Assembly: GCA_951801825.1 (NCBI GenBank)
Contig: CATOOF010000002.1
Location: 226,441 to 290,440 of the forward strand
Direction of reading: 5' to 3'
Source of the DNA: an uncultured Alphaproteobacteria bacterium
GTDB taxonomy: Bacteria; Pseudomonadota; Alphaproteobacteria; Rs-D84
DNA: 64,000 bases
Below the pieces are notes generated by a model. The model was not told where the DNA came from. It saw nothing but the letters and a program-made list of their open reading frames with translations, and did no database searches. The position numbers and the translations under genes are program-made. This document shows, in pieces, positions 9,078 through 53,693 of this stretch. Every line of letters starts with the position of its first letter. Positions within the stretch are counted from its first letter, which is position 1.

Positions 9078-9107
9078 TTGTCAAGGCGTATAAAAATCTG
9101 ATAGAAT
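9078..9107 (+). promoter_or_regulatory. Sigma-70 promoter of the 9.1 kb structured leader
   Basis: TTGTCA (9078-9083), 18-base spacer, TAGAAT (9102-9107). The predicted start is near 9114, about 240 nt upstream of the next start codon. Confidence 0.6.
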
Positions 9108-9110
9108 TTA

Positions 9111-9340
9111 TAGCGAAATCACTGGGAAGTGCTTTCGGGACTTTAGCAGGTCCTTAGTAATGACGGCATGCTTATTGCAGACCGTATCCATAATATGACG
9201 CATTTGCGTAAATTATTGCCCCCGGCACAGGTCGGGGTGCCGCGGGTTATACAACAGGGAACATCCCAAAGATCTGTGGAATCATTTCATTACTATGATT
9301 TGCTAACACCCCGACCGCCATTCCTTAGTGGCGGTTTTTA
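9111..9340 (+). ncRNA. Structured leader RNA with possible pseudoknot and terminator (copy A)
   Basis: This fills the otherwise gene-free stretch 9021-9355. A closing stem joins TAGCGAAATCA (9111-9121) to TGATTTGCTA (9296-9305), continued by AGTAATGA/TCATTACT (9156-9163/9287-9294). Inside are several local hairpins, including ATAAT..ACGC-attt-GCGT..ATTAT (9190-9216) and GGCAC/GTGCC (9224-9241). GGTCGGGGTG (9230-9239) is perfectly complementary to CACCCCGACC (9307-9316), which lies just outside the closing stem. That strand overlaps a terminator (ACCGCCA/TGGCGGT, 9314-9335, then a T-run). I recognise no known RNA family. See copies B (50.4 kb) and C (53.5 kb). Confidence 0.55.
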
Positions 9341-9355: not shown

Positions 9356-10450
9356 ATGATGAAGAGAGTTACTTATGGCACAATGTTTGTACTGCTGGGC
9401 TGTATAATATCAGCACAATGCCACGGAATAGAATACAAATCATTGATGCAAATGTGGGGGGTATATGATTACAAAGCGACATCTGGTACCGCCGGGGCCT
9501 TCGTACTGGCGGGATGCGTTGGCAAATCAGGATGTAAATCAATCGTTGGCCTGGTGGCCGACAAAATTGTAGAGCATGGCGGATACTTTTGTCCATATCG
9601 CATTGCCCTGGGATTGTCGCGTTTTAAATATTATTACCCCGCCAACGACCCCACATGGAGCACACGGTGCGCGTGGCTGTGTGAGGCCGGATATTCCGGC
9701 ACGGGTTGCGCAGTGCAGACCGGCACACCATCCTATTGCGACACAAAACCATATACCGCAACCAGTACCGGAAAATTCGGCGACCCTCAGACAATAAATG
9801 CGTCGGTGGGCAAGACAATAGAAATCAGCCGGTTTGCCAGCTGGGATTTTAATACACTGGTTTTGGGCGCAACACAATTCATTGATCATGGAATAATAGC
9901 GGCCCCCGTACGACTGAGATATGGCAAACATATACACGGCATACATGTATACGGCGGCAACGGAACCACCAAAACATTATGCGCCACGGGATATAAACCG
10001 GACAACAACGGCACAAAATGCGTACCAATAAATGCCGAGATTTGTAATACCTCAATGGCAAATCTGAGCATGTGTTACGGATTTTCCAAATCGGATTACA
10101 ACAGCAAAATACACTATCTGGTGGATGATGGCGGATGCGCAAAATTCTTTTGTTCCGAAGTGGGCACCGCATTTGCGCAACCGGGACAATACGAATGCCA
10201 GCCATGCCCGGCAGAGGGCCGAAATGGAATAGATCCGGCAAGCGGCGTCTGCATAAAATGCAACAGCGGGCAAGCTTTTGACAGCACCAGCAACCAATGT
10301 GTTACCGCACGGCCATACACACATACAGATTTACAATACGGTATCGGGCAAACATCCGGCAGTACGGCATTAAAAAACCAGTGTTGGACATATACAGAGC
10401 CAGATGAATACAAAAACTGCGTTATGGGGAATAATTCCATAAATGATTAA
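9356..10450 (+). CDS. Secreted cysteine-rich protein, 364 aa
   Basis: Residues 1-24 form a signal peptide (MMKRVTYGTMFVLLGCIISA..). The mature protein has scattered CxxxC and CxxC pairs, e.g. CATGYKPDNNGTKCVP and ECQPCPAEGRNGIDPASGVC. These resemble the units of the giant proteins at 27745 and 33509. The end NQCWTYTEPDEYKNCVMG loosely resembles the C-terminal module of the small secreted proteins at 18868, 49785 and 54555. No enzymatic motif is seen. No strong ribosome-binding site precedes the ATG, which lies 15 bases beyond the leader's T-run, so expression probably depends on read-through or refolding of that leader. Function unknown. Confidence 0.8.
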   Translation: MMKRVTYGTMFVLLGCIISAQCHGIEYKSLMQMWGVYDYKATSGTAGAFVLAGCVGKSGCKSIVGLVADKIVEHGGYFCPYRIALGLSRFKYYYPANDPTWSTRCAWLCEAGYSGTGCAVQTGTPSYCDTKPYTATSTGKFGDPQTINASVGKTIEISRFASWDFNTLVLGATQFIDHGIIAAPVRLRYGKHIHGIHVYGGNGTTKTLCATGYKPDNNGTKCVPINAEICNTSMANLSMCYGFSKSDYNSKIHYLVDDGGCAKFFCSEVGTAFAQPGQYECQPCPAEGRNGIDPASGVCIKCNSGQAFDSTSNQCVTARPYTHTDLQYGIGQTSGSTALKNQCWTYTEPDEYKNCVMGNNSIND

Positions 10451-20283: not shown

Positions 20284-21850
<1,567 letters not shown>

Positions 21851-21856
21851 TATAAG

Positions 21857-22160
21857 GTCGCGAAAGCGATGATGATTCTGAAGTCTATGCGGAATAAACG
21901 TTTTGGACCCGGGGGCGGTACCCGGCAGCTCCACCAATAAGCAATACGGGGCTGACATAGTTTCGACAGGCGCGGTAAAGGCAAAAGATTGAATCCGACA
22001 TGGCGTCGTTAAAAGCCGTTAAAAAATGAATGCGAACGATAACGTTCAGCTTGCAATGGCTGCCTAATATGGCGTTGAATACGGTTGGCGATTGTTAACC
22101 CTATTCGTTTTAGCTTTTGCGGGGCCCGCCGGGTGCCTGGCACCAGAAACCCGGTATTTA
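21857..22160 (+). ncRNA. ssrA: tmRNA (ssrA), circularly permuted two-piece alphaproteobacterial form
   Basis: The acceptor half comes first: T-arm CCGGG-GGCGGTA-CCCGG (21909-21925), CAGCTCC, A and CCA (to 21936). After an 11-nt spacer the coding half begins at 21948 with GGGGCTG, which pairs with CAGCTCC, then ACATAGTTTCGACAGG. The tag frame is at 22032-22067. The coding half ends in a CCGGGT...ACCCGG hairpin containing CCTGGCACCAGAAA (22129-22154). Processing would release two RNAs held by base pairing. It works with SmpB (48842) to free stalled ribosomes. The T-loop does not match TTCRANY. The 5' and 3' ends are estimates. Confidence 0.92.
22032..22067 (+). other. tmRNA proteolysis-tag reading frame
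   Basis: GCG AAC GAT AAC GTT CAG CTT GCA ATG GCT GCC TAA encodes ANDNVQLAMAA. With the alanine from tmRNA itself the tag is AANDNVQLAMAA, ending in the hydrophobic-Ala-Ala degron typical of ssrA tags. Confidence 0.9.
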
Positions 22161-27744: not shown

Positions 27745-30700
27745 ATGGAAAAAAAGCGCAGTTTCCTTGGGTTTTTGGCATCTTTATTCGTTGTCTTTTT
27801 TATGGCAAATGCTTTTGCCGCGGGGTATACATGCAACGATAAAAAGCAATACACGTCGTGTAATACTAATTATTATCTGAACAAATCCGGCGTTGGAAAT
27901 GCCTGTCTTTTGTGTTCCAGTGCATCTAATACGACATCTACCGAAACCAAAACGCGTACATGTACGGATGCTGAAAAAACAGCCCTGCATGCAACCGCAT
28001 GCAGCACGACATCATGTCAAAAAAGATGTAATGGTAACTTTACAGCAGGTACCGGTGGCACTACGGTTGGAACGGGCACATGTTCTGGATGCAGTAGCTA
28101 TGCCGATTGTACACCCCGGGACCCGGTGGCAACAGCATGTATAACCGAATATTTTTTCAATGACTCCCAAGATGTTTGCGATCCTTGCTCTGGTCAGCGT
28201 AATTATGATGAATTAGGCAGAACAACTATTACCGGCGGGACAAGAATCCAGACATGTACCGGTTATCATACGGGCGGCGCCGGCGGCACCAGCGGCAGTG
28301 AGGCCTGTACCGGGTGTTCGGCATCCACTTATTCCTGCTCTTGTAATTCTGGCTATCATGTTGTGGGCAGCGGCTCTTCGTGTACATGCGCGCCAAATAC
28401 CATAGACCTTACCTGTAACCCAGGATTCTATGTCAAAAAAGGCACAACAACCTGTTCAGCCGAATGCCCGGTCAATAAATGGTGCGCCGGCGGGAAACAG
28501 ACCATCAACTCTTCCGGGGCAACCGCCGACACCGGAATTAGCGGTAGCTGTCCGTCTGGATTCTCGGCACCTGTAAAGAGTACTTCGTACACGGCATGTT
28601 TTACATCATGTCTCCAGACATGTTCCGGTGAAGCTCCATGTACATATGCCAATGCTAAATGTCTTTATGATACAAGCTATGAATATACCGGAATCAGGAA
28701 ATGTCAAAACGCGGCCTGTACCACAACAACCAGCTGTAGCGCCAGTGGAACATGTCCTGTCAGTAGCTTTGTATGTAACGCCTGCTATAAAAAAAATGCC
28801 GGGGGAACGGGATGTATTGCTGAAACATATACCCTTACATATCAGCCGGGTGGCGGATCTGGTTCGGTACAATCACAGCTTATTCAGTTTCAATCCACAT
28901 TTACAACCAAACCGAGCAACACGTTTACACGGGGTGGGTATAACTTCAGCAGCTGGGGTGGTAGCTATCCAAATGCCAACAGTACATATACATATACCAA
29001 ATGCGGAAATACAACACTGACGGCACAGTGGACAGCATGCAATGCCAGCAATACCGCGGGGGCGTGCAACTGTTCATCCACCCAACACCCAACCGGCAGC
29101 GGCTGTGCAAACTGTAGCGTATCATGCAGCAGCGTAAGCGGATTTACGCTGGGTACGTACAATGTATGCAACTCTCAAACCGACAGCATATGTTACCGCA
29201 ACTGTACAACAGCCGACGTAGCGGGCTCTGCCACGGTAAGCGGAACAGTGACTAAGGGCGGAACCAAGACATGCAAGGCCGATACATGTGATGCAAATCA
29301 CTGTAAAACAACGGTCGGAACATGTATTACAAAGCCCGCAAACGGAACATGTAATACCGGCGGGGGCGATCCGATTACATGTAACGCCGGCTATCACCTT
29401 AACACGGCAAAGACGGACTGTCTGCCGAATACATACAATGTTACCTATTCCTGTGGCGCCGGAACAGGCACGGCCCCAACGGCAAACACGGCAACATACG
29501 ACGCATCTTATACGCCAAAGTCCAATACATGCTCGCGCGCCAACTATGCCTTTAGCGGCTGGCTGGTATCGGGAACCAGTGATACAAAGCAAGGCAACTT
29601 TATATGGAAATATACAGAAAACAAAACCTTTACGGCACAATGGGTTCCGACAAAGTGTCCTGCTAATCAGTATCTGGAAAATGCACAATGTAAAACATGC
29701 CCAACATCTCATCCAAAATCTGTTGAGGGCAACAATAACAGCATAAACGACTGTTACAAGGATTGTAATGCCAGCTGTACATCCCCGTCGTCTTGCCCGG
29801 CGAACTCCAGCGGCTGTACATTTGATACGACGGTAAAAAAGCCCGGAACACAGAAATATAATTCGTCTTCGTGCGTAATAAATACCGGCGTAAACAGTGC
29901 ATGTCCGGTAAAAACGCTGGCGTGTAATCGTAACTATTATACGAACGATCAGGTTTGCTCTGCGTGTACCAGCCTTGGTAACGGACAATGGAATACGTCG
30001 TTGTCATCAAACAACAGCGGACCAGAAGGCTGTTATGCAACATGCAAAAAACCGTGTACACCGATACAATGTCCGGCACACTCTACCTGTACACATGGCA
30101 ACGAAGAAAAAATCGGCGGAATATACTACCCCAGCTCTGAGTGTAACGTGGAAAACTTTAGTTGCTCTGTATCAATAACACCGGATCCCGGATACGAGGG
30201 CTGTGATGATGGCGTGTGCGACCCGATTGTTGCAGAAATAACCCTGAATCACGAAGGCGGAACCAGCACCGTCAGCAAAATATACCAAAAATACAGTGTT
30301 GGATATTCGCTGACCAACTTTGGTGCAACGGTTACCAAAATACCTGTTCCGACACGTGCCACATGGGGCTTTAACGGGTACTTTACAGCGGCCACAGGCG
30401 GCGAAAAGATTGTGGACGCCAATGGTAATATTATTGCTGCAAATACAAAGTTTTTACAGAAACAGAACAACACAATATACGCCCAGTGGACACGTCTGAC
30501 ACGTAATTGCGTCGTCGGAAAGGCATATGACGGAACAAACGACGTTAACTGTCCGGCAGGCAAATATTGCCCTGGAACAGGAACGGCGGTAATCGGAACC
30601 GCCGGATGTGCAACACAATGTCCGGCCGATGCGGCGGGTGGAACGGTTACATCCGACGTAAACTCTTCGGTTGTCACGGCATGCCGTACGGTGCGCTCTA

Positions 30701-33123
30701 ACCAGGTGTTGGATGATCAAACCGGCCGCGGCGACCAGACCTGTGGGTATAACACATCAAAATCCGATTACTCTGCCAGCTGTACAATTAAAGTTACGGC
30801 ATGTAATGCAGGATATTATCGTCAGGCTGAAAATTCAACAACTTGCTCTTCGACAGAGATTGGCGCATACAGCCCAGCAAACGATATTAAAAAGTATATG
30901 TGTAGCGCACTTAGCGGTGCCACAGCCGATGTAACAACAGCGGCCAAGAATTCTGGCGCGGCAACATTGTGCTATAATCCGTGCGGCAATGTTCCAATTG
31001 CCAATGGAACGCGCGTGCCTGTTAACACCAAAGAGTTCTATAACGGAACAAAAATACCGGCATGTACATATACAACATCATGTAGCGACGGATACAAGCC
31101 GGAAGGCACAACGTGTGTACCCAATGTATATAAAATTACATTGAACCATAACAACGGAACGCCAAACAGCACTATTTATCTAAAGTTTGCCACAGGCTGG
31201 TATTCCAACGAGGCGGCGACCAATCAGATTACATCTGTAACCGTGCCGTCCAAGGGTGACGGAATGGCATTCTCGGGCTATGTATCGTCTAATAATGACG
31301 TTATAATCAGTGCAAACGGTACGCTGACCACGAACTATAACGTGTTCAAGTCAAATGCGACCATTACGGCTGAATGGGGCGCACGCACACCAATCACATG
31401 TGCGGCCGGTACATATTACACTGGTTCGGGCACATCATGTACGGGATGTACCGCAGGAAACTATTGCCCTGGTGTCGAAACATTTGAAGGCGTGGGCAGT
31501 CCGCGTGGCATCAATACGTGCGCATCACTGGGCGGAACATATGTACATGCCGACGGGGCGCCGGCCACGGTCGTCACATCAAAGGCAAACGCCAAGGCAT
31601 CCACAGACTGTTATGCGACAAATGTTGCGTATACATCTGCATCAAACAAAGCGACCGGCAGCCAGACATGCTATTTCAACCCGGCAACAACAAAATACCA
31701 GGACGGCAAGTGTGAGGCAATCCAGGTGCTTAGCTGTGGTGGTGGTTATTACGCAAACATCGTATTAAATCGCGATGACTGTATTGAGGTCGGATACGGA
31801 TTCTATAGCCCGGCCCCAACCCCCAGTCATTTGGCGGAAAGTTTGGAGAGAACCGCCTGCGAGGAAGGTGCAACAACCAGCACGCCAACCAGTGTATCGG
31901 CCGACGCATGCTTTGTCTGCCCGGCAGGTATGGTATGCGATCCGATAACCGGCGAAGAACCTAAAACATGCGCAGAGCTGACCAATGGCACGCATCCGAA
32001 TTCAGATACCGGAAACACGGATGTTGCAGGATGCTGGCGTGATTGTGCGGTCGCGACAAATGCCGCCACAATGAAAGGACATGATTACTACGGATTGCCG
32101 TCAACTTGTGAAATCGACAACTGTAAGGCCGGATTCACGTACAATGCGACGACAAGAACATGTGACCTGTGTCCAGAAGGGTCGTTCTGTGGTGGCGGCG
32201 AAGGCAGTGGCGACTGTCCTGAGGGTCAAAACTGTGATGCGCCTAAATCGTGCTCTGACCTGGGCGATGGCAGTTGGGAATATTCCGACATTGGCGCAAC
32301 AGGTCCAAAAAGTTGCTATAAAAAGTGCGAACAATATAATCTGGATGGCGGAATTGCCGTACCGGTGGCCGATCGTGCGTACTATGCAAACCAGTGCGAG
32401 TTCAAGGGCTTTGACATTGATAACACCCCCTGTGATATTGAGGACGGCGTATGTGTGACAACATCATGTAAACCATCTTTTGAAATGGTAAACGGCAAAT
32501 GTGTTGCATGTAACCGCGATCACGCACTGAGCTATAAAAACACAGGCAACTGTATGGTGGCAACATGCGAGCCGGGCTGGCATCCATACGGCCAGAGCTG
32601 TGAAGGCGACATTACCGAGTGCTCTGCCCCGAATGCATTACGCGCTGAAAAGCAGTGGGATTATAAAAAGAATGCATACGGCATCTGTCTGATAAAGCAG
32701 TGCGAAGATGGATTCCACATATCGTCCAACGCCTGTGTAAGCGACATCCAGGACTGCACGGTTGAACACGGAACGGGCGAAAAGACATGGAATCATACAA
32801 CGAACACATGGGGCGAATGTGTAGCAACATACTGTGACCCGGGATGGACGAATGATCCGTACGAAACAAACGAGCCAACCAAGCAATGCGGGCACTGTAA
32901 GAACAAGTTCGGTATAAAGGGCGAACTGGCCGTCAGTGGTTATAGTCGCGGATGCACAATATCGGCATGCATGTACCAGGGCGAACTTTATAACCTGGAA
33001 AACAACGAGTGCAACCCGATATGCGACGTAAACGGCTATGAGGATGAAACGGGTACGATGAAATGGAACCCGGCAACCAAAAAGTGCGAACGCACATGTA
33101 AAGAAGGCTATGTAATGTGGTAA
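27745..33123 (+). CDS. Giant secreted cysteine-rich protein with InlB B-type repeats (1792 aa)
   Basis: Signal peptide residues 1-28 (..ANAFAAGY); RBS AGAGGAAG. The mature protein is almost entirely short cysteine-bounded loops (C-x-x-G-Y/F.., CPAGKYCPG, TCAAGTYYTG). Four beta-grasp segments resembling InlB B/Listeria-Bacteroides repeats are embedded near residues 360-430 (YTLTYQPGGGSG...TLTAQW), 563-635 (YNVTYSCGAGTG...TFTAQW), 831-915 (AEITLNHEGG...TIYAQW) and 1129-1212 (YKITLNHNNG...TITAEW). No anchor, autotransporter barrel or sorting motif is visible at the C-terminus (CKEGYVMW). Likely a cell-surface protein held by disulfides. It has its own terminator. Confidence 0.88.
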   Translation: MEKKRSFLGFLASLFVVFFMANAFAAGYTCNDKKQYTSCNTNYYLNKSGVGNACLLCSSASNTTSTETKTRTCTDAEKTALHATACSTTSCQKRCNGNFTAGTGGTTVGTGTCSGCSSYADCTPRDPVATACITEYFFNDSQDVCDPCSGQRNYDELGRTTITGGTRIQTCTGYHTGGAGGTSGSEACTGCSASTYSCSCNSGYHVVGSGSSCTCAPNTIDLTCNPGFYVKKGTTTCSAECPVNKWCAGGKQTINSSGATADTGISGSCPSGFSAPVKSTSYTACFTSCLQTCSGEAPCTYANAKCLYDTSYEYTGIRKCQNAACTTTTSCSASGTCPVSSFVCNACYKKNAGGTGCIAETYTLTYQPGGGSGSVQSQLIQFQSTFTTKPSNTFTRGGYNFSSWGGSYPNANSTYTYTKCGNTTLTAQWTACNASNTAGACNCSSTQHPTGSGCANCSVSCSSVSGFTLGTYNVCNSQTDSICYRNCTTADVAGSATVSGTVTKGGTKTCKADTCDANHCKTTVGTCITKPANGTCNTGGGDPITCNAGYHLNTAKTDCLPNTYNVTYSCGAGTGTAPTANTATYDASYTPKSNTCSRANYAFSGWLVSGTSDTKQGNFIWKYTENKTFTAQWVPTKCPANQYLENAQCKTCPTSHPKSVEGNNNSINDCYKDCNASCTSPSSCPANSSGCTFDTTVKKPGTQKYNSSSCVINTGVNSACPVKTLACNRNYYTNDQVCSACTSLGNGQWNTSLSSNNSGPEGCYATCKKPCTPIQCPAHSTCTHGNEEKIGGIYYPSSECNVENFSCSVSITPDPGYEGCDDGVCDPIVAEITLNHEGGTSTVSKIYQKYSVGYSLTNFGATVTKIPVPTRATWGFNGYFTAATGGEKIVDANGNIIAANTKFLQKQNNTIYAQWTRLTRNCVVGKAYDGTNDVNCPAGKYCPGTGTAVIGTAGCATQCPADAAGGTVTSDVNSSVVTACRTVRSNQVLDDQTGRGDQTCGYNTSKSDYSASCTIKVTACNAGYYRQAENSTTCSSTEIGAYSPANDIKKYMCSALSGATADVTTAAKNSGAATLCYNPCGNVPIANGTRVPVNTKEFYNGTKIPACTYTTSCSDGYKPEGTTCVPNVYKITLNHNNGTPNSTIYLKFATGWYSNEAATNQITSVTVPSKGDGMAFSGYVSSNNDVIISANGTLTTNYNVFKSNATITAEWGARTPITCAAGTYYTGSGTSCTGCTAGNYCPGVETFEGVGSPRGINTCASLGGTYVHADGAPATVVTSKANAKASTDCYATNVAYTSASNKATGSQTCYFNPATTKYQDGKCEAIQVLSCGGGYYANIVLNRDDCIEVGYGFYSPAPTPSHLAESLERTACEEGATTSTPTSVSADACFVCPAGMVCDPITGEEPKTCAELTNGTHPNSDTGNTDVAGCWRDCAVATNAATMKGHDYYGLPSTCEIDNCKAGFTYNATTRTCDLCPEGSFCGGGEGSGDCPEGQNCDAPKSCSDLGDGSWEYSDIGATGPKSCYKKCEQYNLDGGIAVPVADRAYYANQCEFKGFDIDNTPCDIEDGVCVTTSCKPSFEMVNGKCVACNRDHALSYKNTGNCMVATCEPGWHPYGQSCEGDITECSAPNALRAEKQWDYKKNAYGICLIKQCEDGFHISSNACVSDIQDCTVEHGTGEKTWNHTTNTWGECVATYCDPGWTNDPYETNEPTKQCGHCKNKFGIKGELAVSGYSRGCTISACMYQGELYNLENNECNPICDVNGYEDETGTMKWNPATKKCERTCKEGYVMW

Positions 33124-33508: not shown

Positions 33509-36500
33509 ATGCTACGGGAATCAGGGATTTTTTGTCGTCTGAATAGGACTAAAAAAATCCTCCACTTTTTTTCTCTTATACTGATTCTTGTAACATGGTC
33601 CTTTGGTGCGTCTGCCGCCGGCTATACATGCCCCACACAGAAAAAATATACATCGTGCAGCTCTGGTTATTATCTTTCCGAATGCGGCGCATCCAGTAAT
33701 TGGAACGGTCAAACAATTGCATCCAGCAGTCTGAAAGCTGGAAACTCTTGTATCAAGGGAACTAATTCTGCGTATACATATCCTGGCGGAACTGTTTGTC
33801 CAAAACCAAACAAGGTAACGTGTGCAGCGGGCAAGTATTTACCGGCAAATAAATCTAGCACTTCAGATTGTACTACGTGTGAAATCGGGTACTATTGTCC
33901 CGGCGGTACTTTTACGCCAAACAGCAGTTCAGTCCAAGGACGAAGCAGTTGTGTTGGAAATGCAACAACAAGCAGCACTGGTCAAACATCCGTTTCTGCC
34001 TGTATATGCAAGGCAGGATATGGTGGAAACGCCGCATCAACCAGTGGCAGCTGTACAGCATGTACAACTGGTCGCTATAAATCAAGCAACGGGAATACGG
34101 CCTGCTCTGTTGCCAGTATCGGATACTACGTCAGCACAACCGGCGCGACATCACAATCAGCATGCACATCATGGCGCGCCAACACAACAACAACAGGTAC
34201 AGGCTCTACATCAACAAGTGCATGCGTCTGCAAGGGTGGTTACAGACTTAACAGCACAACATGTACGGCGTGCTCCACGGGAACTTATAAATCCGCCGCA
34301 TCAAATGCAACCTCCTGTACATCGGCAGGTATCGGATACTATGTCAGCACAACCGGTGCAACATCACAATCGGCATGTACAGCGTGGCGCGCCAACACAA
34401 CAACAACCGGTACGGGTTCAACATCAACAAGTGCATGCGTCTGCAAGGGTGGTTACAGACTTAACAGCACAACATGTACGGCGTGTTCCACGGGAACTTA
34501 TAAATCCGCCGCATCAAATGCAACCTCCTGTACATCGGCCGGTATCGGATACTACGTCAGCACAACCGGCGCGACATCACAATCGGCATGTACATCGTGG
34601 CGCGCAAATACCTCTACAACCGGTACGGGTTCAACATCAACAAGCGCATGTGTTTGCAATATAGGATATGGCTGGAACGGTTCGGCATGTGCAAGCTGTG
34701 GCGCCGGAACATACAAGACATCCAAAGCAAATAGCGCCTGTTCCAGCTGTGGGGCGGGATACTATTGTACAGGCGGCTCACATCGGGCGTCCTGCAGTTC
34801 GATTTCCGGGGTTTCCGTGGCGGGCGGAAGTTATACTTCGGTATCTCCATATAACGCTTCTTCAACCTGTCGATATACGGCACCGGCCAAAACTATTGGC
34901 GGATGCAAAACGGTTACCAGCAATCAGGTCTCATACAGTGGGTCCGCATGGGGAACCAGCACTTATTCGGTTACCGCAAATCCGGGTTATATTATCGCCA
35001 ACAACAACACTGCAAATGCAACCTGTTCGCAATGCAACGGCGCGGTATGGTCTGCAGGCGGCACGGCAACGTCGTGCAGTGGATGCCCCGCCCAAACATC
35101 TGGCTGGACTCGCAATTCTGGCGCGGGTTGGAGCGCGGTGACACAATGCAACCAGACAAAAAATGTTGGCGGAAACTGCAGCGCGGGTGTACTGCGCCAG
35201 AATGCAACCAGCACAACGGCATGGGGTGCGTCAACAATCTCAACCGCATTGCAGGCAAAGGCTGGATACATTGTCAACGGCCAGACATGTACAGGATGTT
35301 CGGCCGGCACATACAGTGCGGGCGGTACTGCAACATCGTGCAGTGCATGTACAACACGCGCTAAGTACAGTGGCGCCAATGCCTCTGCGTGCACAAATGT
35401 TAGTTCCGGATACTATACCACCGGATGCAATACCAGCGGCAATAACTGTACCGGCCAAGCACAATGTACAGGCGCAACATACTGTAGCGGCGGTGTTAAT
35501 AATAACTGTCCGGGCAGCTATACCGCCAATACCACAAACGGCAAAACCGCCGCAACACAATGTACAATCAATGTGGGCGCAGGAAAACATATAGGAACCG
35601 CCAACAGTTCTACAATCTCAAATTGTGCGGCCGGCCAATATCGTGCAGCGCATACTGTAAACTATGGCAGTACGTCTAGCTGTAGCAGTTGCCCAAGCGG
35701 CTATACATCCAATGCGGGGTCGGCCGGGGCCGAAACATCATGCTATATCAACGTTGCCGGCGGTAAATATTTAGGCACCGAAAAGGGAACCACGCTGTCA
35801 ACATGCGCGGCTGGAACATACAAGGCAGCACATACTGTAAATTATGGCAGCAAGTCCAGCTGTGCGGCATGTACGGGCGCAACTTTCTCTGGGGCGGGCG
35901 CCGCCAGTTGCACCAACTGTCCCTCAGGATATACAGCTAATACCGCATCAAACAAAACCGCGAATACACAGTGTCAAATTTCTGTGAGCGGGGGTCACTA
36001 TATCGGCGCATCCGGCCAAAATAGCGGAAATTGGGGAACGTGCGCGGCGGGTACCTCAAAGGCGGCACATACCGTAAATTATGGCAGCACGTCCAGCTGT
36101 GGCGTATGCACAGCCAACAATACTTATTCGGCGGCCGGTGCGACATCGTGCAGCACGTGCCCCACGGGATATGCAAACACCGGTACGACAGCCGCGGCAC
36201 ATGCAAACGCAGCATCCTGTAAAATAAGCGTTGCTGCAGGTAAATATTTGGCCACAGCAAACGGAACAGCACTGACTTCTTGTGCGGCGGGGAAATACAA
36301 AGCGGCACACAGCGTATCTTATGGTTCCACATCCAGCTGTGATACATGCGGTGCGGGAACCTATTCAGGAGCGGGCGCGGGCAGTTGCAGTGCATGTTCC
36401 GGAACATTGCAATATCAGGATGCCACGGGCCAGTCATCATGTAAAACGGTATCTTCGGGATATTATAAATCCAGCAACAGCGCCCAGACACAATGTCCCG

Positions 36501-38485
36501 CGAATTACCGTAATGGCGGCGCCGCGGCAAATATAAGCGGATGCACGGCATCATGTGCCGCCGGCAGCCGCGTTACAACCGCAAATGGCGCATGTACCGC
36601 GATAACCACCGGGAATGTGTATATGCTGGCACATAATGTGACATATGGCAAAACATCAGCCGCGGCAACATCTTGCCCCGGCGGGTACAGCATCAGCGGC
36701 ACGTCCCAGACAGACCATGACGCAAAGAACGACTGTAAAATAAATTGCGGCGCCGGAACACGTGTTGCATCCACGGACGCAACATGCAGTGGCGTTGGAA
36801 ACGGATATTACATCGCGGCGCATACGGTATCTGCGGGCTCTATATCGGGGGCGGCAACACAGTGTCCTGCGGCATACCCGAATTCTGATGCGGGCGCCGG
36901 CGTTATCACAAAATGCTATAGCGGGCAAAAATCGCGTGCATGGACCGGCGGTCAAACAGCATGCGATACTCCCGCCAACAGCTATGGCCATACTTGCAAC
37001 AGTTGCTCTAACCCGGCATGCAGTTATGTTGCGTTCTCTAACAGCGCCGGCAATGGTGACGGAACTATAAAAACAGGATGCGGAACAAATAATGCCGCAT
37101 GCAAGCAGACAGTAAAAAGCTTTACATGTAATGCCGCATATTATGTAAACGGTGCCGCATGCAGTGCATGCAGCGGGCTGGGCGGGGGCTTTTATCCCAA
37201 CAGCGCGGCCGGCAATACCGGGGGCGCGACCGCGTGCAAGACAAACAATCTGGCCGGCCAGTATATCGCAACCGCAAATGCAACCAGCGCCACCGACTGT
37301 GGTGCGGGCAAATACAAAGCCGCACATCAGGTTGCATACGGCAGTACGTCCGCATGCAGCACAGCATCTGCGGGACATTATGCGCCGGGTCCGCGCAGTG
37401 CATCCCAGACACAGTGTGTTGCCGGCTCTTATAGCACGGCGGGGGCGTCGGGATGTACGGCATGTGGTGCGGGAAAAACATCTGCGGCCGGGGCAACCGC
37501 AGCCAGTGCATGTACAAACTGTACCGCGATTGCAAATATAAACACATGGGCAACGCCTGTTTGGAACACAAACAACACGATGAGTAATCTGTGCAGTGTT
37601 GCAACATGTAATGGCGCATCGTATAAAAACGGCAACACATGTCCGACATGCCCGCCAAACTATGGTGTGAACACGGCAACAGGCAAAACATCCATCGGCC
37701 AGTGTCAGACATCCTGTGCGGCCGGATACGCGGTTCAAAATGTGAACGAGGCATGCAAAATAATCCCTAGCGGGTATCAGACAGGAACGCACCGTATCGG
37801 ATATGGTTCTAAAACCCCGACGGCCGTCGACAGCACGTCCCCAAAGGCAGGGACCTGGTACAGCTGTCCGACAAATTATAGTGCGACAGGAACGGCGGCC
37901 ACAGACCACGATGCTCGCATCGACTGCAAAATAAGCTGTGGTGCGGGCACCCGGATTGTAACCGCGGACGCGGCCAGTTGCACCACCCCGGCAGGCAACT
38001 GGTGGGTTGGCGCACATACGGTTGGCGCAGGAACCATATCAACGGTAAACAACTGCTTGAATAATTATACCATCGCCGGCACTGCGGCCACAGACCACGA
38101 CGCGGCGGCAGACTGTAAGATAAGCTGTGGCGGGGGTTATTACATTGCGGCGGCGAATGCGACATCCTGCAGCAGTGTTGGTGCCGGATACTGGACGGGC
38201 GCCAGTGTGGTATCCCAGGGCAGTACCGGTTCGCGTACGGCCTGTGCGTCGGGTCTGACCACAATAGGCTATGGTGCTGGTGCGGACGAGTCTGGGGACT
38301 GTGGACGTATAATGCACTTTGGGGACAGCAAGCTGTACCTGCGCAGTACGAAGAAGACGACCCCGTCGTTGAACGTAAAGGTTGGCGACAAGACGTATTA
38401 CGGCAACATGAGCACGTCGACCAAGGGCAAGTTGCGTATTAAGAAAGACGCAACCACGTACAGTGTTCATGACGACAGTATGTAG
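33509..38485 (+). CDS. Giant secreted cysteine-rich repeat protein (1658 aa)
   Basis: ATG at 33509 with GGAGGAAG upstream; signal peptide residues 1-36 (KKILHFFSLILILVTW..SAAGY). The body is dozens of cysteine-bounded units of about 40-70 residues, many as CAAGTYKAAHTVNYGSTSSC then CP.GYT and QC.I. Near residues 205-385 a 71-residue unit (213 bp) is repeated about 2.5 times with near identity. The last 70 residues, from CGRIMHFGDSKLYLRSTKK on, lack cysteine and are basic and beta-rich (VGDKTYYGNMSTSTKGKL), suggesting a C-terminal targeting or anchoring domain. Presumably surface-exposed. Paralogue of the 27745 protein in style, though lacking InlB-type repeats. Confidence 0.88.
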   Translation: MLRESGIFCRLNRTKKILHFFSLILILVTWSFGASAAGYTCPTQKKYTSCSSGYYLSECGASSNWNGQTIASSSLKAGNSCIKGTNSAYTYPGGTVCPKPNKVTCAAGKYLPANKSSTSDCTTCEIGYYCPGGTFTPNSSSVQGRSSCVGNATTSSTGQTSVSACICKAGYGGNAASTSGSCTACTTGRYKSSNGNTACSVASIGYYVSTTGATSQSACTSWRANTTTTGTGSTSTSACVCKGGYRLNSTTCTACSTGTYKSAASNATSCTSAGIGYYVSTTGATSQSACTAWRANTTTTGTGSTSTSACVCKGGYRLNSTTCTACSTGTYKSAASNATSCTSAGIGYYVSTTGATSQSACTSWRANTSTTGTGSTSTSACVCNIGYGWNGSACASCGAGTYKTSKANSACSSCGAGYYCTGGSHRASCSSISGVSVAGGSYTSVSPYNASSTCRYTAPAKTIGGCKTVTSNQVSYSGSAWGTSTYSVTANPGYIIANNNTANATCSQCNGAVWSAGGTATSCSGCPAQTSGWTRNSGAGWSAVTQCNQTKNVGGNCSAGVLRQNATSTTAWGASTISTALQAKAGYIVNGQTCTGCSAGTYSAGGTATSCSACTTRAKYSGANASACTNVSSGYYTTGCNTSGNNCTGQAQCTGATYCSGGVNNNCPGSYTANTTNGKTAATQCTINVGAGKHIGTANSSTISNCAAGQYRAAHTVNYGSTSSCSSCPSGYTSNAGSAGAETSCYINVAGGKYLGTEKGTTLSTCAAGTYKAAHTVNYGSKSSCAACTGATFSGAGAASCTNCPSGYTANTASNKTANTQCQISVSGGHYIGASGQNSGNWGTCAAGTSKAAHTVNYGSTSSCGVCTANNTYSAAGATSCSTCPTGYANTGTTAAAHANAASCKISVAAGKYLATANGTALTSCAAGKYKAAHSVSYGSTSSCDTCGAGTYSGAGAGSCSACSGTLQYQDATGQSSCKTVSSGYYKSSNSAQTQCPANYRNGGAAANISGCTASCAAGSRVTTANGACTAITTGNVYMLAHNVTYGKTSAAATSCPGGYSISGTSQTDHDAKNDCKINCGAGTRVASTDATCSGVGNGYYIAAHTVSAGSISGAATQCPAAYPNSDAGAGVITKCYSGQKSRAWTGGQTACDTPANSYGHTCNSCSNPACSYVAFSNSAGNGDGTIKTGCGTNNAACKQTVKSFTCNAAYYVNGAACSACSGLGGGFYPNSAAGNTGGATACKTNNLAGQYIATANATSATDCGAGKYKAAHQVAYGSTSACSTASAGHYAPGPRSASQTQCVAGSYSTAGASGCTACGAGKTSAAGATAASACTNCTAIANINTWATPVWNTNNTMSNLCSVATCNGASYKNGNTCPTCPPNYGVNTATGKTSIGQCQTSCAAGYAVQNVNEACKIIPSGYQTGTHRIGYGSKTPTAVDSTSPKAGTWYSCPTNYSATGTAATDHDARIDCKISCGAGTRIVTADAASCTTPAGNWWVGAHTVGAGTISTVNNCLNNYTIAGTAATDHDAAADCKISCGGGYYIAAANATSCSSVGAGYWTGASVVSQGSTGSRTACASGLTTIGYGAGADESGDCGRIMHFGDSKLYLRSTKKTTPSLNVKVGDKTYYGNMSTSTKGKLRIKKDATTYSVHDDSM
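34121..34660 (+). repeat. 213-bp tandem repeat inside the second giant gene
   Basis: GGATACTA recurs at 34121, 34334 and 34547, exactly 213 bases apart, with near-identical sequence between. The repeat keeps frame (71 codons), and the third copy decays after about 110 bases. Confidence 0.88.
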
Positions 38486-49784: not shown

Positions 49785-50279
49785 TCAAGAACCAGAATAA
49801 TAACAGTTTGCCGCATACACCCCCGAACCATTAGTTTCATTAAAAGCGGTGTCTTTTGGAATATAGCACTCAGAACTCTGCAGCGCACCCGGCCCAGACG
49901 TTGTGCCCGGCGCATCACATGGGGTGCAGCTGCGACTGAAACATATGTTTTCCGGAGCACCGTAATAGCCTTTTGCGCATCTGTAACTGGTCACGGCAAG
50001 ACATGAATTATTTACACACCCTTTGCTTGTTACCTGTTCACAGCCCTTTACTATTTCGATAGAGGTCGTACCAACGCATGTTAAGGGATCACAGTCAATA
50101 ACATCCCCTGGTTTTATTGTACATGGGGGACAGCAAAAGGAACCATATTGGTTACATCCGCCCGAAATATCTAACCTGCACTCAAAACAATCAATAGGAT
50201 CCCCTGAATCGGTTGCATTGGCCGCATTTATATATATTAGACCAGACCCAAGAGCGGTCAATATTAATTTAGCTTTCAT
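49785..50279 (-). CDS. Small secreted cysteine-rich protein (17 Cys, 164 aa)
   Basis: I start at MKAKLILTALGSG (50279), with AGGAGA upstream and a signal peptide ending ANA; an 85-codon longer frame runs through the structured leader and is rejected. The mature part is about 12% cysteine, including CCPPC and CTPC. The C-terminal module RCAKGYYG...CTPC...ECYIPKD...GSGVYAANCYYSGS matches the 18868 and 54555 proteins. No enzyme motif. It is transcribed behind RNA copy B and its terminator, so expression may be controlled by attenuation. Confidence 0.82.
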   Translation of the reverse strand: MKAKLILTALGSGLIYINAANATDSGDPIDCFECRLDISGGCNQYGSFCCPPCTIKPGDVIDCDPLTCVGTTSIEIVKGCEQVTSKGCVNNSCLAVTSYRCAKGYYGAPENICFSRSCTPCDAPGTTSGPGALQSSECYIPKDTAFNETNGSGVYAANCYYSGS

Positions 50280-50309: not shown

Positions 50310-50514
50310 GAAAAAACCACCCAAAATATGAGTGGTCAGGAGGTTCAGAACAATCGTATGAATTGTGTGCTTATTCTTTATATTCGCAACCCTCCTGACC
50401 CCGGGTTCAGGAGTTGTTCGTCCGTATATAAAAACAGGCGCAGGCGCGCCATCATCTATATCCTGACGCATACGCAGAGGTTCTGACACCCCGCCGGCGA
50501 AACTCTCGCCAGGC
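50310..50514 (-). ncRNA. Structured leader RNA (copy B) before the 49785 gene
   Basis: Starts about 7 bases after the promoter at 50521-50549. Closing stem GAACAA/TTGTTC (50414-50419/50348-50353). Local hairpin CTCCTGA/TCAGGAG (50407-50413/50392-50398). GGTCAGGAGG (50391-50400) can instead pair perfectly with CCTCCTGACC (50334-50343), just outside the stem. That strand overlaps a terminator ACCACTC/GGGTGGT (50336-50316) followed by T6. Upstream are GGCGA/TCGCC and GGCGC/GCGCC hairpins. The 3' part resembles copy C in sequence (CACAATTCATACGATTGTT versus CGCAATTTATAGTGATTGTT). Confidence 0.55.
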
Positions 50515-50553: not shown

Positions 50554-51471
50554 TTATTCGGTCGCGGCGGCGCGTGGATGCGCATGCGAATATATATTAC
50601 AAATCTCGTCCATATTAACACGGGTATACAACTGGGTGGTGGACAGCGACGAATGACCCAATAATTCCTGCAGACTGCGCAGATCCGCCCCGCCCGATAA
50701 TAACACCGTCGCAAAAGTATGACGCAGTGCATGCGGCGTCACATAGTCCGGCAGTTGCAGATAATTACGCAGATTTTCCACAACCTTTTGCGCCATACGC
50801 GGCGTCATTGGCAGACCGCGAATACTGCGAAACAAAGAATCTTGGGGGGCGGCGCCAAACGGACGTATTGCGACATATTTATCAATCGCATCATATACAG
50901 GGGCCAGTATTGGAACAATGCGCTGTTTGTTGCCTTTTCCGGTAATGCGCAAAACATCAGGCCGCCCCGCAATATCAGAATTTCGCAGGGACAAAGCCTC
51001 TGATATGCGCAGGCCGCAACCAAACATCATCATAACCAGCGCCCAATCGCGCGCGGCAATCCAGGGCTCATTAGAATCCACAGCCTTTATGGCATCATGC
51101 ATACTTGCCACATCGGACGCGGCAATCGCCTTGGATACCTTGCGCGGAATTTTTGGCGATGATATCAACCCAATCGAATCATTTGAAACGTTATAGTGCT
51201 TTTTTAGAAATCTATAAAACGAACGCATTGAAGACATCGCGCGCGCCGTTGACTTATGCGATAATGCCCGACGCCCACGCGACGCCAGCCATGCACGAAA
51301 ACATAGCGTATCGGCATGCGCCATATCTGACAATTCCGGAGCCGCGCCCGAATAATCCTGATAGAACTCTAAGAAATCCAGGATATCGGAATTATAGGCC
51401 GCCACAGTGTTCACAGAATAATGCCTGGTCTGTGTCAGATAATCTGCAAATGCGGTGACGGCCTGATTCAT
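50554..51471 (-). CDS. xerC: Tyrosine recombinase XerC/XerD type
   Basis: 305 aa. N-terminal SAM-like core-binding domain (VTAFADYLTQTRHYSVNTVAAY), then catalytic domain with Arg in GCGLRISEALSLR, Lys in GKGNKQRIVPI, HALRHTFATVLLSGG (HxxR), LGHSSLSTTQLYT with nucleophile Tyr. It resolves chromosome dimers at dif with its partner. C versus D assignment is by general look. No integrase-like context, so a housekeeping role is likelier than a mobile element. Confidence 0.9.
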   Translation of the reverse strand: MNQAVTAFADYLTQTRHYSVNTVAAYNSDILDFLEFYQDYSGAAPELSDMAHADTLCFRAWLASRGRRALSHKSTARAMSSMRSFYRFLKKHYNVSNDSIGLISSPKIPRKVSKAIAASDVASMHDAIKAVDSNEPWIAARDWALVMMMFGCGLRISEALSLRNSDIAGRPDVLRITGKGNKQRIVPILAPVYDAIDKYVAIRPFGAAPQDSLFRSIRGLPMTPRMAQKVVENLRNYLQLPDYVTPHALRHTFATVLLSGGADLRSLQELLGHSSLSTTQLYTRVNMDEICNIYSHAHPRAAATE

Positions 51472-53236: not shown

Positions 53237-53515
53237 AATAAATACCCTTACCTTGTATTCAATATTAATGCGTTAAATGCAAAAATGAAAGCCGAAATTA
53301 TAAAAAAATGTAAAACGCCCTGGGGGCTGGCCTGGGCGTTTTTGCGCAATTTATTTTAGTGATTGTATATTGATTATTCCATAATTTTTTCAATTTTCCA
53401 TAGGAACAAATGCCGATATTAAACACAAAAACACAATTTTTTGAAAAAAATACTGGCATTAATAAAAAAAATAAGATAAGATTCTTCTCGCAACAAAGAA
53501 AGTATTGTTGTGGGC

Positions 53516-53693
53516 CTTCTAACCCAACACTATAAAAAATATCCAACATTGGTTGGAGTGCAGGTAATAACCAATAACTGCGCAATTTATAGTGATTGTT
53601 AGAAGCTCCAACCACCTAACTTTCGGTGGTATTTTTAATGGGGCTTTACCGTCTTCTCATCTCCAATCACAGAAACGGTAGCCCCACTTTTTA
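53516..53693 (+). ncRNA. Structured RNA, orphan copy C
   Basis: Closing stem CTTCTAAC...CACTATAAA (53516-53536) with TTTATAGTG...GTTAGAAG (53586-53605). Local hairpin CCAAC/GTTGG (53543-53556). GGTTGGAG (53551-53558) is complementary to CTCCAACC (53606-53613), immediately outside the stem. Terminator ACCACC/GGTGGT (53611-53630) shares ACC with it and is followed by a T-run. A second hairpin TGGGGCTttACCGT/ACGGTAGCCCCA (53639-53686) with T-run follows. No gene lies downstream on this strand. Its promoter is unclear; TTGTGG-17-TATAAA (53508-53536) would start inside the stem. Confidence 0.5.

Follow-up and report, generated by a model that had tools for sequence, protein, structure and literature searches.

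sRNA-Xcc1-related RNAs of C4 type as probable terminator-coupled gene leaders in an uncultured alphaproteobacterium

An RNA element that recurs in the genome of an uncultured alphaproteobacterium is a divergent sRNA-Xcc1 (Rfam RF02221) of the C4-antisense type, C4 being the antisense RNA by which phages control antirepressor genes. Its copies are probably C4-type RNAs that have turned into terminator-coupled leaders, placed before genes whose products are either secreted and rich in cysteine or small helix-turn-helix (HTH) proteins. Some of the copies stand alone or in tandem. Three copies, A, B and C, lie in the window, that is, the whole 64,000-nucleotide stretch of DNA analysed here. A preliminary description took them for a candidate new RNA family. 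The three copies are real, but the RNA is not new, and the actual size of the family in this genome is about 45. The same description correctly recognized a structured, covarying and partly pseudoknotted RNA with a 3′ strand common to a long helix and a terminator, an arrangement that points to an attenuator or an sRNA.

Results

Copies in the window

Copy A is made up of the following parts, all on the plus strand:

9078-9107, plus strand: promoter predicted from sequence reading, with the -35 element TTGTCA at 9078-9083 and the -10 region at 9100-9107
9120-9131, plus strand: 5′ hairpin P0, CACTGGGAAGTG, which covaries in homologues (helix 1)
9137-9163, plus strand: C4-type internal target, with a1 at 9142-9150 and b1 at 9154-9163
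9219-9226, plus strand: c1, which also complements the G strand and may form a local hairpin with it
9230-9239, plus strand: G-rich 5′ strand of P1, GGTCGGGGTG; the RF02221 match covers 9231-9323
9240-9279, plus strand: P2 hairpin, whose internal loop, AUACAACA / AAA, is conserved; P2 covaries (helix 6)
9287-9306, plus strand: antisense strands b′ (9287-9295, in P3) and a′ (9297-9306), helices 3 and 4 in the covariation test
9307-9316, plus strand: 3′ strand of P1, CACCCCGACC, then the RCC motif (GCC)
9314-9339, plus strand: intrinsic terminator, ACCGCCATTCCTTAGTGGCGGTTTTT, with ACC common to P1; terminator pairs covary (3/3)
9356-10450, plus strand: gene for a 364-aa cysteine-rich protein with a signal sequence

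As first described, the two P1 strands are exact complements, and the terminator and the 3′ strand of P1 have ACC in common. What had been called an outside pseudoknot is P1 of the RF02221 core, followed by P2 and P3. The closing stem proposed between TAGCGAAATCA (9111-9121) and TGATTTGCTA does exist, but the upstream strand had been wrongly chosen: in copy A the 3′ strand has TTTAGCAGG plus TTAGTAATGA, at 9142-9163, as its homologous partner. The stem at 9111 is a side or extra pairing, and the conserved pairing is that of 9142-9163 with 9287-9306. In copy A, a1 lies within a hairpin loop (GGGAC..GGTCC), and the computed pairing of a1/b1 with a′/b′ amounts to -26.6 kcal/mol. By analogy with C4, RNase P is predicted to cleave this copy before G9230.

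Copies B and C keep the part order of A with different sequences, again as described, and A and B both lie upstream of genes for secreted cysteine-rich proteins. Copy C stands alone and precedes no gene. A and C form much more stable folds than shuffled sequence does, with z scores of -5.5 for A and -6.5 for C. The parts of B and C are:

50311-50510, minus strand: whole copy B, 85.8 bits with model R1 (see below)
50510-50496, minus strand: P0 of copy B, followed by a1 (50487-50479) and b1 (50475-50467)
50400-50391 with 50343-50334, minus strand: P1 of copy B, with a′ at 50351-50342 and the terminator at 50336-50311
49785-50279, minus strand: gene 3′ of copy B, for a 164-aa secreted cysteine-rich protein
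53491-53636, plus strand: whole copy C, stand-alone, 64 bits with R1, of whose training set it is a member
53491-53510, plus strand: 5′ hairpin of copy C, followed by a1 (53516-53523) and b1 (53527-53536)
53551-53558 with 53606-53613, plus strand: P1 of copy C, with b′ at 53586-53594, a′ at 53598-53605 and the terminator at 53611-53636

The gene immediately 5′ of copy B (window 50554-51471), read in the same direction, encodes a tyrosine recombinase of the Xer/phage integrase type. Elsewhere in the window, two very large adjacent open reading frames (27745-33123, 1792 aa, and 33509-38485, 1658 aa) possibly encode giant surface proteins; the former has one weak match to the Listeria-Bacteroides repeat and the latter has no Pfam match. 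An alphaproteobacterial tmRNA is found at 21818-22158, part of which is also matched by the permuted-tmRNA model.

Family members in this and other genomes

A covariance model, R1, was built from eight B-type copies; it was limited to this type because MAFFT, applied to all 12 copies found at first, put the G strand out of register between the subtypes. Searched with R1, the 897-kb genome has matches at about 47 places, 32 of them with E<1e-5 (R1 E-values are rough, and the training copies match by construction). Several are in tandem, about 200 nt apart. R1 also matched 28 of the 44 other genomes searched. For statistics, 45 copies of the source genome were retained. The closest named relatives of the source are Candidatus Enterousia.

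The Rfam model of sRNA-Xcc1 aligns with copy A over its full length, 1-87 (34 bits, E 2e-4). It also matches nine further places in the same genome (E 3e-6 to 4e-3). All ten are below the gathering score of 53 bits, the best copy reaching 41 bits, and at gathering score no Rfam family matches A, B or C. Among 40 relatives, 23 have RF02221 matches, and one copy from the same genus is above the threshold with 57.8 bits; 14 control genomes gave 0 matches. Since the element is nearly a palindrome, five of the first RF02221 matches fell on its antisense strand. Matches of Hrs13 and NsiR4 to copy A were rejected as weak and terminator-like. A search of a phage collection with one relative gave no match.

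Directly before a same-strand start codon lie 27 of the 45 copies, usually with 10-30 nt from the U-run to the start. The genes that follow encode mainly secreted cysteine-rich and small HTH proteins. The remaining copies are either in tandem upstream of a gene-leader copy or stand alone like C, as about a dozen others do. One stand-alone intergenic array lies between tsf- and tyrS-like genes (names read from translations). In two intergenic regions, C2:60000-64500 and C2:80000-84500, three to four copies follow one another in tandem with no gene after them, and several members of these arrays have no overlapping terminator. In 42/45 copies a TANWWT motif is present 85-165 nt upstream of P1, compared with 60% in shuffles, which is weak evidence for a promoter.

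Pairing and covariation

In an alignment of 17 copies, the 41 proposed pairs are paired in 93.4% of cells; none of 500 shuffles was as good, and structures slid along the same alignment were 33-55% paired. The structure was written from the same sequences, so the percentage paired is biased towards it, and the shuffles leave relatedness in; it is safer to rely on the count of pairs in which both partners have changed. By this count the covariation claimed earlier proved strong, with changes on both sides in 22/41 pairs across the 17 related copies, including 6/7 pairs in a1:a′, 4/4 in b1:b′, 4/5 in P2 and 3/3 in the terminator.

Across the 45 copies, a′/b′ pair with their own upstream a1/b1 at -21.2 kcal/mol, as opposed to -15.3 when partners are swapped (0/5000 permutations). 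For the G strand with its own c1 the values are -11.6 and -9.2 kcal/mol (0/5000, 45 copies), although c1:G has no covariation in the 17-copy subset. Pairing of a′/b′ with their own downstream leader in this genome (n=23) was -7.6 versus -7.5 kcal/mol (1987/5000), and a class-level test of downstream pairing was mixed (213/5000). The upstream pairing is locus-specific in this genome and the downstream pairing is not, so the internal target has been kept and a downstream target is undetectable. P1 is paired at 9/9 positions in 40/45 copies. It starts with GG in 40/45 and is followed by R[CT][CT] in 38/45, which fits the prediction that RNase P cuts P1 at its 5′ G. The internal loop of P2 is A-rich, strongly conserved (AUAYAACA/AAA or GAAUA/AAUAA) and outside the C4 scheme; an extra hairpin is sometimes inserted in it.

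The overlapping terminator

In the window's genus, an intrinsic terminator overlaps P1 by 3 nt and occupies the place where a downstream target would be. Its 5′ arm consists of the last three nucleotides of P1 and the next three, with 6/6 paired in 30/42 copies and 5/6 in 4 more. As in an attenuator, the terminator lies in the 5′ UTR and overlaps an alternative helix. The computed difference between finishing P1 and finishing the terminator is -1.1 +/- 0.9 kcal/mol in 30 copies. The last three pairs of P1 could therefore be exchanged for the first three of the terminator at nearly no cost, and this calculation leaves a switch between the G strand/P1 and the terminator plausible. Overlapping terminators were found in 26/27 gene-leader copies and 8/18 others (Fisher p 1.2e-4, with the copies divided by hand). 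In other small alphaproteobacterial genomes, five RF02221 relatives (L121, L123, L126, L128 and L134) have a terminator-like hairpin after P1 and no downstream target. This variant may therefore predate the window's genus.

Relationship to sRNA-Xcc1 and C4

sRNA-Xcc1 and the window copies share the P1-P2-P3 core, an AUACAA-type internal loop, a P1 that starts with GG and is followed by RCC, and the upstream a1/b1 pairing. The window copies differ in their sub-threshold score (34 of 53 bits for A), in the overlapping intrinsic terminator and in the loss of a2/b2. The Rfam model covers only the 3′ 87 nt. At wider RF02221 loci, a′/b′ can pair upstream and in many cases also downstream, over the ribosome-binding site. 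We tested locus-specific pairing at 28 loci above the gathering score across Pseudomonadota. The upstream pairing was -32.3 versus -25.1 kcal/mol and the downstream leader pairing -22.6 versus -18.3 kcal/mol, each with 0/5000 permutations. The genes after these 28 loci include those for Bro-N, KilA-N, P22_AR_N, Rha and SymE proteins.

This is the order of C4 (RF01695) with c4-a1b1 (RF03163) of phages P1 and P7, where a1/b1 are followed by helix P1, which encloses P2 and P3; b′ occupies the loop of P3, and a′ precedes the 3′ strand of P1. In C4, RNase P cuts at the 5′ end of P1, b′ acts over the ribosome-binding site and a′ gives specificity (PMC5320573 and work cited there). The second target over the ribosome-binding site and the phage antirepressor genes downstream are C4-like traits of the RF02221 relatives, whereas copies of the window's genus have a terminator in place of a2/b2, and chromosomal surface-protein and HTH genes in place of antirepressors. 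The c4-a1b1 model matches the upstream part of one RF02221 locus (30 bits) and, at three loci from the window's genus, is placed about 40 nt upstream of the core. Genome-wide c4-a1b1 matches were rejected as evidence, since they are unspecific and occur in control genomes too; a match is informative only where it lies immediately 5′ of the core. RF01695 itself identified two true C4 copies in one other genome, with the same layout and before an antirepressor-like gene.

Discussion

Alternative explanations

The copies may instead be trans-acting sRNAs: the terminator would end a C4-like sRNA gene, the neighbouring genes would be self-controlled and the targets would be mRNAs elsewhere. Copy C and the stand-alone or tandem copies at C2:62007-62607, C2:82040-82560 and C1:281731/281958 are in agreement with this. 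Moreover, C4-like sRNAs (Group 1) are an abundant class in Acinetobacter baumannii (PMC5320573), with many C4-type paralogues in one genome and variable a′ loops as here; unlike the present copies, they were matched to C4 itself and are described as processed sRNAs, not terminator-bearing leaders of a gene set. For Xylella fastidiosa, PMC12189769 describes five clustered sRNA-Xcc1 copies, a tandem RF02221 arrangement with a like spacing of a few hundred nucleotides; there, seven copies are treated as trans-acting sRNAs, and the passages on them give no analysis of a1/b1 or terminators. Against this explanation, more than half of the copies here directly precede a same-strand gene, and the usual 10-30 nt from U-run to start codon leave insufficient room for a separate promoter. 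The overlapping terminators are also concentrated in the gene-leader copies. We regard such a family of trans-acting sRNAs as rather unlikely. A spreading repeat, multiplied by transposition or gene duplication with its structure kept for mobility and no regulatory role, would account for some 47 copies in 0.9 Mb, the tandem arrays and the paralogous downstream genes. Yet the sequences have diverged while compensatory pairs and start-codon spacing were kept, and neither a transposase nor target duplication was noticed in an unsystematic look. This origin seems very unlikely. As for the riboswitch-like function suggested in the preliminary description, the P2 internal loop is conserved without a known role and could be a ligand pocket, with the terminator before the genes as expression platform. 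However, what covaries is an antisense pairing, and its sequence varies from copy to copy, the downstream genes have no pathway in common, RF02221 relatives have target copies over ribosome-binding sites, and no Rfam riboswitch matches the window copies. Nothing indicates a ligand, and a metabolite riboswitch is extremely unlikely.

Several observations also weigh against C4-type leaders. RF01695 failed to match the core at E 0.1 in any of six genomes from the window's genus, and RF02221 is absent from the C4 clan in Rfam. The stand-alone copies do not fit a purely cis-acting leader, and both the missing covariation of c1:G and the weak promoter evidence count against the C4-leader explanation.

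Proposed mechanism

If the copies are C4-type leaders, each would be an antisense module of the sRNA-Xcc1 lineage with its own promoter, in which the internal target a1/b1 precedes the P1-P2-P3 core and is complementary to the b′ loop in P3 and the a′ strand. In the ancestral layout, a second target, a2/b2, covers the ribosome-binding site of the gene that follows, which in many cases encodes a phage antirepressor. In relatives of Candidatus Enterousia, the window's genus, a2/b2 has been replaced by the intrinsic terminator, built with its 5′ arm on the end of P1 and the RCC motif and usually ending shortly before the start codon. Most transcripts would end there and, once cut by RNase P just before the initial G of P1, would be left as a C4-like RNA of about 90-115 nt, with the downstream gene expressed by read-through only. 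The balance may be set by the completeness of P1, by the G strand being held by c1, or by a′/b′ being held by a1/b1, either in cis or from a sibling RNA.

Implications

The kind of RNA is known, but its terminator-coupled, genome-wide use looks new. No paper on C4-type wiring of sRNA-Xcc1 or on a terminator-refitted gut family was found in literature searched outside most subscription journals. sRNA-Xcc1, a stand-alone sRNA in Rfam and discussed as virulence-linked in plant bacteria, gains a concrete C4-type wiring, its targets lying in front of genes for antirepressors and SymE. An RNA of phage lysogeny appears to have been multiplied and given terminators in an uncultured gut lineage. It is possible, and we put it forward tentatively, that a phage-type antisense immunity RNA was adopted by a reduced-genome gut bacterium and built into a genome-wide network. 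In it, about 45 leaders coupled to terminators, every one with a separate antisense address, would control the cysteine-rich proteins of the surface and the small HTH regulators, while the stand-alone copies would act on these leaders in trans. A phage RNA refitted with terminators would amount to RNA-based control of a large set of surface proteins.
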